Below are positions 6,653-10,257 of a stretch of DNA of 64,000 nucleotides, in pieces. The translations under genes and the position numbers were made by a program. The notes under the pieces are model-generated. The model did no database searches. It had not been told where the DNA came from and was given only the letters and a program-made list of their open reading frames with translations. This DNA is from an uncultured Eubacteriales bacterium (GTDB lineage: Bacteria; Bacillota; Clostridia; Oscillospirales; Oscillospiraceae). Location: NCBI GenBank assembly GCA_900317905.1, contig ONIN01000001.1:124001-188000 (forward strand). Reading direction: 5' to 3'. Position 1 is the first letter of the stretch; each line of letters starts with the position of its first letter.

Positions 6653-6666
6653 CTATGTGTTTTTGC

Positions 6667-9600
6667 TTATTTCACGCTGAGATCGAAGTTCTTCAGCATG
6701 GAGGCGACCTCTGCGCGGGTAGCGAAGCCCAGCGGGTTCAGACGGCCGAGGTTGTCGCCGTTCATGACGCCGAGGCTGGTGGCCCAATGCATGGCGCCCT
6801 TGGCCCAGTCAGAGATCAGGCTGCTGTCCTGGAAGCTGGCAGTCTTGGCGCTGCCGGCATTCGCGCTCAGGCCCTTCCACTGGGCGAAGCGCTGGAGGAT
6901 CGCAGCCATCTGCTCTCTGGTAGCGGGATCGTTGGGACCGAAGGCTCCTTCCGGATAGCCGTTGACCAGACCGGCCTGCTCCGCCCACATGACGGGCGCG
7001 TAGTACCAGGCGCTGCTGGAGACGTCGGAGAAGCTGCCGGCGGGCGTGAACTCCGGCTTGCCGGCGATGTTGTAGAGGATCTGCGCGATCTGCGCACGGG
7101 TCACCAGGCTCTGGGGCTCGAAGGAGCTGGAATCCACGCCCTTCATGTAGCCCTTCTCGGTGACGTACTGGATCACGGAGTAGAACCAGGAGTTTTTCAG
7201 CACGTCCCGGAATCGCTCGATCAGGGAGGAAACAGCGGGCAGCTTCTCGTTGTCGGAGGTCTGCGCGTTGCTGAAGTAGGCGTCAGCCGCCCGGATGGCC
7301 TCGGGCACCTGGATCAGACCCCAGCCGTAGTAGGTGTCATAGCCCTTGTCGCCCAGATCCTTGCTGGACATCTTCAGAATCTCCAGAAAATCGGTCTTGT
7401 TCATGTCCGGATACTTTTCCTTCAGCAGGGCAGCCAGACCGGACACAAAGGGCGCTGCATAGGAGGAGCCGGCGCCGAGCTTGGCGATGTAGGGCACCTT
7501 GCAGCTGAGGCTGACGACGCCGAAGCCGGGGGCCACGACATCGATGGTCTCGTTGTGGTGGGAGAAGGAAGTGGTCTTCTGGGCGATGTTCACGAAGCCG
7601 ACGCCGATGGTCTCCTCGTAGCCGCCGGGATAGTGGATCGTCTCGGAGCCGTCGTTGCCGGTGGAGCAGACGATGATGACGCCCTTGGACTCGGCGTACT
7701 TAATAGCATTGTGCAGCGTCTCGGTGCCTCTGACGGAACCGATGCTGATGTTGATGACGTCGCAGTGGAATTCATCCACGGCCGCATAGATAGCCCGGGA
7801 ATTGATTCCGGTGTCAGATTTACCGTCGTTAGAAGTTTTCAGCGGAACGATGGTGACATTGGGAGCGACGCCCGCGATGCCCACGCCGTTGCCCTTGGTG
7901 GCGCCGATGATGCCGGCGATGAAGGTGCCGTGACCGTTGGTGTCATCGGTGTTTTCGGAGGCGTTCACCAGGTTCTTGCCGGGGAGCAGACGGCTGCTGT
8001 CGATGTCGCCGGTGTTCAGAGAGACGCCGGAGTCGATGATGCCCACACGGACGCCGCTGCCGGTGAGACCGGACTTCCAGCCCTCACGCATGCCGACCAT
8101 CTTCATATCCCACTGCAGGGGGGAGAAGGGGTCGAAGGAGAGCTTCTCGGCGTTCTGGGGCACCTGGCCCAGATTCACGTCGACGAGCTGCTGATCCAGC
8201 GGCAGACTGTCGTCAACGTTGAATTCCACTTCTGCGGGCTGCTCGGGCTGGGCAGCGTCGGTCTTAGTGAAGTGGGCGTCTGCGGCCTTGATGGCAGCGG
8301 GAGCGTCCAGCAGACCGTAGCCATAGGAGGTATCATAGCCATTGTCGCCCAGGTCCTTGGCGGAGTTCTTCAGGATCTCCATGAAGTCGGCCTGGTTCAT
8401 CTCCGGGTGGGCCTGCTTCAGCAGAGCCGCAACGCCGACAACGAAGGGAGCGGAGAAGCTGGTGCCGCTGCTGCGGTAGACGGTGAAGGGCAGGGTGCCG
8501 AGGCTGAGAACCTTCTCGCCGGGGGCGACCACGAATACGCTGTCGTTCTGGTTGGAGAACTCGCTGACCTTCATGTTCTTATCCACGGAGCCGACGGCAA
8601 TGACGTTGTTGTAGGCGCCGGGATAGTTGTAGGTGGCGTCGCCGTCGTTGCCGACGGTGCTGATGACGATGGCACCCTTGGAGATCGCGTAATCGATCGC
8701 CTGCTTCATTCTGGGCAGATCGGAGGTCATTCCGGAACTCAGATTGATAACATCACAGTGATACTGGTCCACCGCGGCGTAGATTCCGCTGATCACGGCG
8801 TCAGGCGTGGAGAACAGAGTGCCGAAGCACTTGATGGGAGCGAAAGTGACCTCCGGGGCCACACCGGCAATGCCGATGCCGTTGCCCTTGGTAGCGCCGA
8901 TGATGCCGGCGATGAAGGTGCCGTGCCCCTCAGTATCCATGACGGGAGAACCGAAGTTCAGCTTCACGGGGGAGAGGTTCACACCCTCGAGGATGCGGCT
9001 GCGGTCGATGTCCATGGTCAGGTTGGACAGGCCGGAGTCCACGATGCCGACGGTCACACCCTTACCGGTGAGACCGGAGTTCCATGCCTGCTCCATACCG
9101 ATCATCTTCATATCCCACTGGAGGGAGGAGAAGGCGTCGAAGGAGAGCTTCTGAGCATTGGTGCTGACTTCCTTCTCGGAAACCGCCTCATACTGATGGT
9201 CGATGGGCTTGCCGGCGTCCGTGTTCTGGGCCTCGGCGCTGAAATATTCGTCAGCCGCCTTGATGGCCTCGGGAGCCTGGAGCAGACCCCAGCCGGAGGC
9301 GGTGTCATAACCGGAGTCGCCCAGATCCTTGCTGGAAGCCTGGAGGATCTTCTGGAAGTCCGCGGCGGTCATCTCGGGGTGCGCCTGCTTCAGCAGAGCC
9401 GCAACGCCGGTGACAAAGGGGGCGGAGAAGCTGGTGCCGCTGCTGCGGTAGACCAGAAGCGGAGCGGGGCCAAGACTCAGGACCTTTTCGCCGGGCGCGA
9501 CAACGAAAACGCTGTCATTCTTGTTGGAGAAGCTGCAGACGTTGCTGTTCTTATCCACAGCGCCCACGCCGATGACCTCGGAGTAAGCCGCGGGATACTC

Positions 9601-10257
9601 CAGCTGTGCAGTACCGTCGTTGCCGATGGCAGCCACGATGATGACGCCCTTGCTGGTGGCGTACTGAACCGCCTCGCGCAGGGCAGCGTTGTCATAAGGC
9701 GTGCCCATGCTCATGTTGATGACGTTGGCGCCGTATTCATCAACGGCGACACGAATCGCCTCAGCCTCACGGCTCAGGGTCTTGATGGAGACAAACTGCA
9801 CGTCCGGCGCCACACCGGCGATGCCGATGCCGTTGCCTCTGGCAGCACCGATGATGCCGGCGATGAAGGTGCCGTGACCTTCCATGTCAACGACCGTGGA
9901 GCCGAAGAGACCGGAAGCGTCGCTGAGATTCTTGCCCTTCGTGATTCTGCCGGAGGGAATGTCAGCGGTGAGATTGGAGATACCGGAGTCGATGACGGCC
10001 ACGCGCACGCCCTTGCCGGTGAGACCGGAATCCCAGGCCTGCTGCATGCCGATCATCTTCATGTCCCACTGGAGGGACGAGAACGCGTCAAAGGACAGTT
10101 TTTCAGCGTTCATGGGAACTTCTGATTCCTTGACCTCCTCAAACTGAAAATCGATGGGGAGATCGTTTGCACTGGCCGCCGCGGCAGGGACGCCGAACAG
10201 CGGGATGGTCAGACACAGGATCATCACCAGAGCGAGAATCTTGCGGAATTTCTTCAT
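6667..10257 (-). CDS. Secreted triple-subtilase protein with S-layer homology repeats
   Basis: 1196 residues. A Sec signal peptide (1-29, ending AAAAS) is followed by three consecutive S8 peptidase domains, each opened by a conserved leader ending LQWDMKM(I/V)GM. Domain 1: Asp90 (VIDSG), His128 (GHGTF), Asn213 (IGNDG), Ser276 (SGTSFSAP). Domain 2: Asp407, His445, Asn537, Ser600. Domain 3: Asp742, His776, Asn868, Ser932 in GSSYAAP, where the usual Thr before the Ser is Ser. All three triads and oxyanion Asn residues look intact. Residues about 1016-1196 carry three SLH repeats, marked FRDV, FSDV and FQDS, each with a TRAQ/TREQ/TRAE motif, which tether proteins to cell wall polymers. No I9-type propeptide is visible. 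Start: ATG preceded by AAGGAGGAAAA. It is monocistronic with its own promoter. Role: probably cell-surface proteolysis; substrate unknown. Confidence 0.93.
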   Translation of the reverse strand: MKKFRKILALVMILCLTIPLFGVPAAAASANDLPIDFQFEEVKESEVPMNAEKLSFDAFSSLQWDMKMIGMQQAWDSGLTGKGVRVAVIDSGISNLTADIPSGRITKGKNLSDASGLFGSTVVDMEGHGTFIAGIIGAARGNGIGIAGVAPDVQFVSIKTLSREAEAIRVAVDEYGANVINMSMGTPYDNAALREAVQYATSKGVIIVAAIGNDGTAQLEYPAAYSEVIGVGAVDKNSNVCSFSNKNDSVFVVAPGEKVLSLGPAPLLVYRSSGTSFSAPFVTGVAALLKQAHPEMTAADFQKILQASSKDLGDSGYDTASGWGLLQAPEAIKAADEYFSAEAQNTDAGKPIDHQYEAVSEKEVSTNAQKLSFDAFSSLQWDMKMIGMEQAWNSGLTGKGVTVGIVDSGLSNLTMDIDRSRILEGVNLSPVKLNFGSPVMDTEGHGTFIAGIIGATKGNGIGIAGVAPEVTFAPIKCFGTLFSTPDAVISGIYAAVDQYHCDVINLSSGMTSDLPRMKQAIDYAISKGAIVISTVGNDGDATYNYPGAYNNVIAVGSVDKNMKVSEFSNQNDSVFVVAPGEKVLSLGTLPFTVYRSSGTSFSAPFVVGVAALLKQAHPEMNQADFMEILKNSAKDLGDNGYDTSYGYGLLDAPAAIKAADAHFTKTDAAQPEQPAEVEFNVDDSLPLDQQLVDVNLGQVPQNAEKLSFDPFSPLQWDMKMVGMREGWKSGLTGSGVRVGIIDSGVSLNTGDIDSSRLLPGKNLVNASENTDDTNGHGTFIAGIIGATKGNGVGIAGVAPNVTIVPLKTSNDGKSDTGINSRAIYAAVDEFHCDVINISIGSVRGTETLHNAIKYAESKGVIIVCSTGNDGSETIHYPGGYEETIGVGFVNIAQKTTSFSHHNETIDVVAPGFGVVSLSCKVPYIAKLGAGSSYAAPFVSGLAALLKEKYPDMNKTDFLEILKMSSKDLGDKGYDTYYGWGLIQVPEAIRAADAYFSNAQTSDNEKLPAVSSLIERFRDVLKNSWFYSVIQYVTEKGYMKGVDSSSFEPQSLVTRAQIAQILYNIAGKPEFTPAGSFSDVSSSAWYYAPVMWAEQAGLVNGYPEGAFGPNDPATREQMAAILQRFAQWKGLSANAGSAKTASFQDSSLISDWAKGAMHWATSLGVMNGDNLGRLNPLGFATRAEVASMLKNFDLSVK

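Follow-up and report, generated by a model that had tools for sequence, protein, structure and literature searches.

A secreted SLH protein with three subtilisin-like domains on one chain, and a probably corresponding set of separate proteases in its genus

The gene and its domains

The window analysed here is a stretch of 64,000 nucleotides from a gut bacterium. An open reading frame with an ATG start (6667..10257, minus strand) encodes a protein of 1196 residues, P0001, and a full-length chain of approximately 125 kDa was estimated from this length. All features given below lie on the minus strand. The N-terminus is hydrophobic and signal-like when read by eye, with the signal peptide at about residues 1-28 (10174..10257). 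The chain then comprises three units, each with a leader and an S8 domain. In unit 1, the leader was placed by sequence alignment at residues 33-70 (10048..10161), and the S8 domain (9286..10017) carries D90, H128, N213 and S276. Sequence comparison placed the leaders of units 2 and 3 at residues 350-387 (9097..9210) and 685-722 (8092..8205). Domain 2 (8314..9066) carries D407, H445, N537 and S600; domain 3 (7318..8061) carries D742, H776, N868 and S932. Taken by increasing position, the S8 matches are 744, 753 and 732 nt long. Three SLH repeats were found at about residues 1010-1190 (6688..7230; three PF00395 stretches, outer borders approximate).

Pfam placed three PF00082 stretches on the protein, which scored 480.5 bits in all (cut-off 21.8), and three of PF00395 at one end of the chain (121.3 bits). 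The sequence-only reading of the locus as one secreted SLH protein with three S8 domains was thereby borne out, and all 12 catalytic residues that it had named (Asp, His, Asn and Ser in each domain) were found correct when checked letter by letter.

The same reading had each unit begin with the same 38-residue leader. The leaders are homologous but not identical, with 29/38 residues shared between units 1 and 2, 25/38 between units 1 and 3, and 22/38 between units 2 and 3. Their last 16 or so residues overlap the N-terminus of the catalytic domain itself, which aligns from residue 3 of mature subtilisins, and the pre-catalytic region has shrunk to about 20-25 residues per unit. No Pfam I9 propeptide was found in P0001 at E<=1. 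This is a weak test, because I9 was likewise unmatched at E<=5 in three relatives that have one S8 domain and a longer region ahead of it. The LIP[YF] motif was absent from P0001 and from all 26 proteins of the comparison set (five fused proteins, P0001 included, 14 array S8 proteases, five SLH-only proteins and two outgroups).

Independent copy and rarity

An ortholog of equal length and 93% identity (L028) was found in an independent assembly, G006, where it sits on a 57 kb contig of a rumen MAG with similar neighbours on both sides. The source genome of the window is only 79.6% complete and in 38 contigs, and an assembly error that joined or collapsed separate genes had been named as a way in which the three-domain form could be false. 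The independent copy makes such joining very unlikely, rules out an artefactual origin of the three-domain form and leaves this explanation a negligible probability. Two-domain forms, described below, were found on short contigs (7-10 kb), and there is less certainty about them than about the three-domain form.

The triple-S8 architecture was rare in the samples searched. Complete listings were obtained for 394 genomes of the order (25 with a match) and 291 genomes of the class (70 with a match), and in both the window's own genome was the only one with more than one match in a single frame; the other known carriers of the fused form were not drawn in these samples. Triple-S8 SLH proteins, whose commonness had been named as a result that would refute the sequence-only reading, were thus not seen to be common in these samples. 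In a class-wide PF00082 search, at least 186 of 391 genomes matched. Its listed matches reached down to E 1.4e-52 and ended before the window's own domains, so they carry little information on tandem forms. Family-wide, PF00082 matches were listed down to about 2e-39. In a viral scan, 8 loci matched at 27-35% identity.

No report was found in the literature searched on proteins with two subtilisin domains or with three S8 domains. The survey table of PMC2605481, as far as the portion used here extends, holds no architecture with two S8 domains; it does contain a single-domain S8-SLH architecture, Subt-PA-DUF1034-(Big_2)2-(SLH)2.

Separate arrays in the genus and the origin of the three domains

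Five of the ten genomes of the genus contain an array (L034-L038) consisting of a gene for a secreted SLH-only protein, then genes for three secreted proteases with one S8 domain each, a1, a2 and a3. In the G008 array, which reaches a contig end, a3 was not seen. Five fused proteins were found, of which three are two-domain forms that lack domain 1, and in three genomes a fused form and the array occur together. Neither the three-gene set of the relatives nor the two-domain forms had been noticed in the sequence-only reading. The array resembles P0001 in its S8 group, its three members and the SLH protein encoded alongside; it differs in that its proteases are separate, secreted and without an SLH match.

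In the tree, domain 3 grouped with a3 (support 99/97) and, more weakly, domain 1 with a1 (92/91). Domain 1 and a1 also have a 7-residue gap in common, and the rows of domains 2 and 3, a2 and a3 are without it. A clade of domain 2 and a2 was not recovered, yet was not rejected (p-AU 0.194). From these groupings we infer a one-to-one correspondence of the fused and array sets, which is supported for domain 3, weaker for domain 1 and conjectural for domain 2. The tree tests rejected a recent origin of domain 1 by copying of the first array gene of G006/G007 (p-AU 1.2e-65). The SLH part of P0001 was 31-36% identical to the SLH-only protein over the longest match in the five arrays, and 44% identical to another SLH protein (L035:88-2274). 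This distance from the SLH-only protein argues against an origin of the fused gene by mere joining of the four array genes.

Long identical DNA stretches had been reported between domains 1 and 2 and attributed to recent duplication; if one domain had been duplicated in place, the protein would have gained only additional copies of an existing activity. The two are indeed the closest pair (62.9% amino acid identity vs 52.9% and 53.1% for the other pairs), and an older clade of the two was not rejected (p-AU 0.122). Their DNA is only 67.4% identical over 978 nt, however, with a longest identical in-register run of 32 nt, and neither the stretches nor their recent origin held up. A recent-duplication clade was rejected (p-AU 0.0173; 0.027 with G007 added). 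The tree of the three domains, which had been proposed as a check, also rejected a single clade of the fused domains (p-AU 0.0175). By these tree tests, the fused domains stem neither from recent duplication nor from a single origin, both being rejected at the 5% level, and we give recent in-place duplication very little credence. Relatives encode the matching three as separate neighbouring genes, so the triple-S8 protein resembles an older set of enzymes in an uncommon single-chain form rather than one enzyme newly copied.

A conserved amphipathic C-terminal segment ends all 12 of the complete array proteases. Within the genus, 13 strong matches to it were found, comprising these 12 proteases and one 34-aa frame in G006, with two weak matches besides. 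A signal widespread in the family was not supported, since 250 genomes yielded a single weak match (E 5e-4). The segment may be an unrecognised docking signal. It is conceivable, though unlikely, that three complementary subtilisins form a surface protease machine in this genus and that it is assembled in two ways: without covalent links in the array, where the segment would dock on a partner, possibly the adjoining SLH-only protein, and covalently in P0001.

Proposed function and known systems

The catalytic Asp, His, Asn and Ser were kept in 26/26 units of the group and in 2/2 outgroups in the alignment. Omega between G000 and G006 was 0.152, 0.077 and 0.123 for domains 1, 2 and 3, and purifying selection therefore acts on each of the three S8 domains (omega 0.08-0.15). 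Domain 1 has the highest value of the three and is also the one missing from three of the five fused proteins. E220, N544 and H875 in domains 1, 2 and 3 are presumably the equivalents of BPN' 166, having been placed by alignment and by BPN' numbering; in domain 1, this residue is E in G000 vs Q in G006. According to the part of PMC3378952 drawn on here, this position lies at the base of S1 and its residue is important for which substrates are preferred.

P0001 is best read as a secreted, SLH-anchored surface protease with three different, probably all active, S8 domains on one chain, the covalent counterpart of the three-protease set of its relatives (probability about 0.6). The SLH repeats would probably tether the chain to the cell wall, and the three active sites, which differ in their S1-pocket residues, would probably cleave different bonds in an external or cell-surface protein. 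On this reading, each domain would be active, and the three active sites would be non-redundant, each with a specificity of its own. A nutritional or surface-trimming role may be supposed; none of the named neighbouring genes hints at a substrate.

The protein may instead be a polyprotein precursor, whose domains cut the linkers between them and then work independently, domain 3 alone staying on the SLH anchor. This is possible, at rather lower odds, and accords with the matching set of separate secreted proteins in relatives. It also has parallels in the parts of PMC6636752 and PMC1435904 used here: interdomain processing of C. difficile CspBA frees CspB and CspA, and processing of human polyserase-1 can give three independent units, but the domains of polyserase-2 and -3 stay on one chain. 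A self-cleaved P0001 would be more a mature form of the anchored three-domain protease than its opposite. That at least one domain is non-catalytic and serves as a spacer or regulator is improbable. The absence of domain 1 from the three two-domain relatives fits such a role, as do C. difficile CspA and CspC, which lack catalytic residues (same extract of PMC6636752), and certain inactive polyserase domains (same extract of PMC1435904); the intact catalytic letters in all units and an omega far below 1 in each domain oppose it. More improbable again is a processing protease of the mycosin or Csp type that is dedicated to a single cognate partner. With the NCBIfam mycosin model TIGR03921 (cut-off 278.75), the whole protein reached 608.3 bits, a total drawn from three stretches together; the only Csp model to appear, NF040808 (non-triad CspC), scored 20.1 bits against 675, and ESX and spore genes are absent among the named neighbours.

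Under the preferred reading of an anchored protease with three sites, sister species still have the unfused set, and three genomes have it alongside a fused form, which makes the gain from joining proteases on one chain a question that can be asked directly. Candidate gains are shared anchoring, processive cutting and mutual activation. The practical weight of the finding is modest.

Among known systems, single-domain S8-SLH proteins are likewise secreted and join an S8 catalytic domain to SLH repeats. An example is L062 in G012 (580 aa), which ranked first in the order search once the window's own genome is set aside; it differs from P0001 in having a single S8 domain and a longer stretch before it (Pfam S8 start at residue 126 vs 81). 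Among solved structures, the best sequence match is annotated as an intracellular serine protease, a group represented here by 7y6m and 2x8j. In intracellular subtilisins, a short pro-segment replaces the prodomain (PMC6220982, in the section cited), which is a further likeness; these enzymes are cytoplasmic and carry the LIPY/F motif, whereas P0001 has a signal peptide by eye and no LIP[YF]. Subtilisin-like proteins of the CspBA type are single in most Clostridia and fused in one lineage, as stated in the portion of PMC6636752 used, and the C. difficile fusion is thus a likeness. CspBA is a spore protein with two domains, of which only CspB is catalytic, and a prodomain; P0001 has three domains, all with catalytic residues, plus SLH repeats. 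The Csp jelly-roll insertion of about 130 aa in S8 described there was not found in P0001, where His-to-Ser spacing is 148, 155 and 156 residues in domains 1, 2 and 3.

Human polyserases 1-3 belong to protease family S1. They also carry several serine-protease domains per secreted or anchored chain (PMC1435904, in part), but as animal proteins of an unrelated family with some inactive domains they offer an analogy only. If all three of its domains are active, P0001 would be a bacterial counterpart of these animal polyserases in another protease family.

Anatomy and integrity of the fused gene

The fused S8-SLH gene (window 6667-10257, minus strand) is an open reading frame of 1196 aa with a plain N-terminal signal peptide, as judged by eye. 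Pfam placed three Peptidase_S8 and three SLH stretches on its product (P0001), in agreement with the sequence-only reading of three S8 domains and SLH on one chain. The catalytic Asp, His and Ser and the oxyanion Asn which that reading had named in each domain (D1, D2 and D3) were all correct (12 of 12). An antisense open frame (window 6655-10125, plus strand; 1156 aa, 1152 aa within the gene) is taken as a by-product of codon usage, since it is shorter in four relatives (585, 423, 640 and 790 aa), the sense frame is intact in each of these, and G+C at third codon positions of the fused gene is 0.83. Summed over three stretches, the whole-protein score passed the cut-off of the NCBIfam mycosin model, so the gene may be labelled a mycosin by automatic annotation.

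False joining during assembly, raised earlier as a possible source of the three-domain form, is ruled out by a counterpart in G006, another genome of the genus (contig CADCQK010000259.1, rumen MAG RUG14881). This gene has the same length (3591 nt), and its protein is 93% identical across residues 1-1196. Both genes lie between IspD and an FMN-dependent-dehydrogenase-like gene; these neighbours were named in the window genome (G000) and matched by eye on N-terminal letters in G006. dN/dS between the two genes was 0.152 for D1, 0.077 for D2 and 0.123 for D3; each domain evolves under purifying selection.

We put the probability that the product is an anchored protein with three active, non-redundant sites at roughly 0.6. 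The most likely role is the breakdown or trimming of protein at the cell surface in an organism with many SLH proteins; every genus genome gave many SLH matches among the matches listed. None of the named genes around the fused locus indicates a substrate.

Five fused forms were found, with three S8 domains in two (G000, G006) and two in three, the latter less certain and on contigs of 7-10 kb. The two-domain forms comprise an 881-aa frame in G007 (L029) and an 895-aa protein in G008 (L030), both with SLH, and an 854-aa protein in RUG258 (L031:5926-8487). The RUG258 protein has no SLH match; choline-binding-type repeats replace SLH as its anchor module. Domain order in the two-domain forms is D2-like then D3-like. 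The leader of the first G007 unit is identical to the D1 leader at 0.81 of 72 nt versus 0.60 to the D2 leader, whereas the body is nearer to D2 (0.90 of 774 nt) than to D1 (0.71 of 753 nt). Such a mosaic would be expected from domain loss or gain between leader and body.

The separate array locus and the history of the domains

An array locus was found in five of the ten genus genomes (L034 in G006, L035 in G007, L036 in G003, L037 in G002 and L038 in G008). It comprises an SLH-only secreted protein followed by codirectional single-S8 secreted proteases (a1, a2 and a3). G002, G003, G006 and G007 each have three S8 genes, of which the last one in G006 is cut off by the contig end; the G008 contig stops within its second S8 gene. 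This gives 14 S8 genes, 12 of them complete. Spacing between them is 23-38 bp at the two loci measured (G003, G006). The G006 a1 start (L034:2000-2045) is uncertain and unlike the other four, with the first ATG inside the signal, possibly through an assembly error or frameshift. An SLH protein encoded downstream of the G007 array (L035:88-2274, minus strand) carries a carbohydrate-binding domain of the Cthe_2159 type.

Fused and array forms occur together in three of ten genomes (G006, G007, G008), the fused form alone in one (G000), the array alone in two (G002, G003) and neither in four (G001, G004, G005, G009), as scored from SLH matches among the matches listed. Absences are soft because genome completeness is 57-97%.

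The unit tree (26 units) resolved D1, D2, D3, a1, a2 and a3, groups named after the first tree was seen; a version with two outgroups (28) drew a program warning of long branches meeting. D3 grouped with a3 (support 99/97). D1 grouped with a1 at 92/91, under the starred level, and the two share a 7-residue gap. D2 with a2 was not recovered, nor was it rejected (p-AU 0.194). A recent duplication of domains 1 and 2, proposed in the sequence-only reading, was rejected (p-AU 0.0173; 0.027 after adding G007), as was a single clade of the three fused domains (p-AU 0.0175), while a D1+D2 clade was not (p-AU 0.122); these p-values are modest. We read the domains as old paralogues that would predate the split of fused and array forms. 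The fused SLH part is no closer to the SLH-only proteins of the five arrays (31-36% identity, longest match) than to another SLH protein (44%); the fused gene is thus no simple joining of the array's four genes.

S1-pocket residues, leaders and the C-terminal segment

At the position that, from the alignment and the numbering of mature subtilisin BPN', we take to be equivalent to residue 166, the window protein has E220 (D1), N544 (D2) and H875 (D3). Across fused proteins D2 has N in 5/5 and D3 has H in 5/5; the D1 residue is E in G000, Q in G006. The arrays have N in a1 (5/5), L (3/5) or V (2/5) in a2, and H (3/4) or Y (1/4) in a3. BPN' residue 166 forms part of the S1 floor, where a Gly-to-Asp change shifts BPN' preference to P1 Lys (PMC3378952); with these distinct residues, the three domains likely prefer different substrates.

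The claim of one 38-residue leader at each domain held as to a homologous stretch at each unit, but only 22-29 of the 38 residues are identical pairwise. The final part of each leader overlaps the N-terminus of the catalytic domain proper, leaving about 20-25 residues per unit; a1 proteins have zero residues between signal and core. The match to the S8 profile begins at residue 126 of L062 (a single-S8 SLH relative), 58 of G003 a1 and 81 of the window protein, a comparison of lengths alone, as Pfam gives no I9 domain in any of the three. The short leader segment may represent a shrunken propeptide.

The 12 complete array proteases share a conserved C-terminal segment with eleven invariant positions. 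Its helical hydrophobic moment was high in 4/4 tested, with shuffles equally high in 0.9-2.1%. The profile gave 13 strong matches in the genus, namely these 12 proteases and, at another place in G006, a frame of 34 aa that may be the end lacking from the a3 gene of that genome; two additional matches were weak. One weak match was obtained in 250 family genomes, a sample whose hits include no array-bearing genome, such genomes evidently not having been drawn. As a guess, the amphipathic segment might serve in docking or membrane binding.

Occurrence of multi-S8 proteins

The unit profile matched 25 of 394 genomes in the order sample (E<=1e-60) and 70 of 291 in the class sample (E<=1e-50), all of them listed. 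More than one match per frame was found in G000 only, in samples into which other known carriers of multi-S8 forms were not drawn. Tandem proteins may be missed because at most 5 or 7 candidates were scored per genome. PF00082 matched 132 of 300 family genomes; among the matches listed, more than one per frame occurred only in G000 (three) and G007 (two). A whole-protein scan of genome contigs confirmed six relatives from 31 candidate stretches, with three S8 domains in one, two in three and one in two.

The literature search returned, among the titles listed, no paper to the point on two or three S8 domains per chain, a weak absence given that subscription papers lie mostly outside its reach. 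The architecture table in a survey of serine proteases of prokaryotes, published in 2008, includes S8 with SLH and shows no repeated S8 (PMC2605481). Three adjacent S8 genes in separate frames (382, 390 and 390 aa) were observed in a genome of another family of the class (G858:C1:180686-185083); in the reading used by the search, two of these matches cross stop codons. Repeated-S8 architectures are present in Pfam in other proteins.
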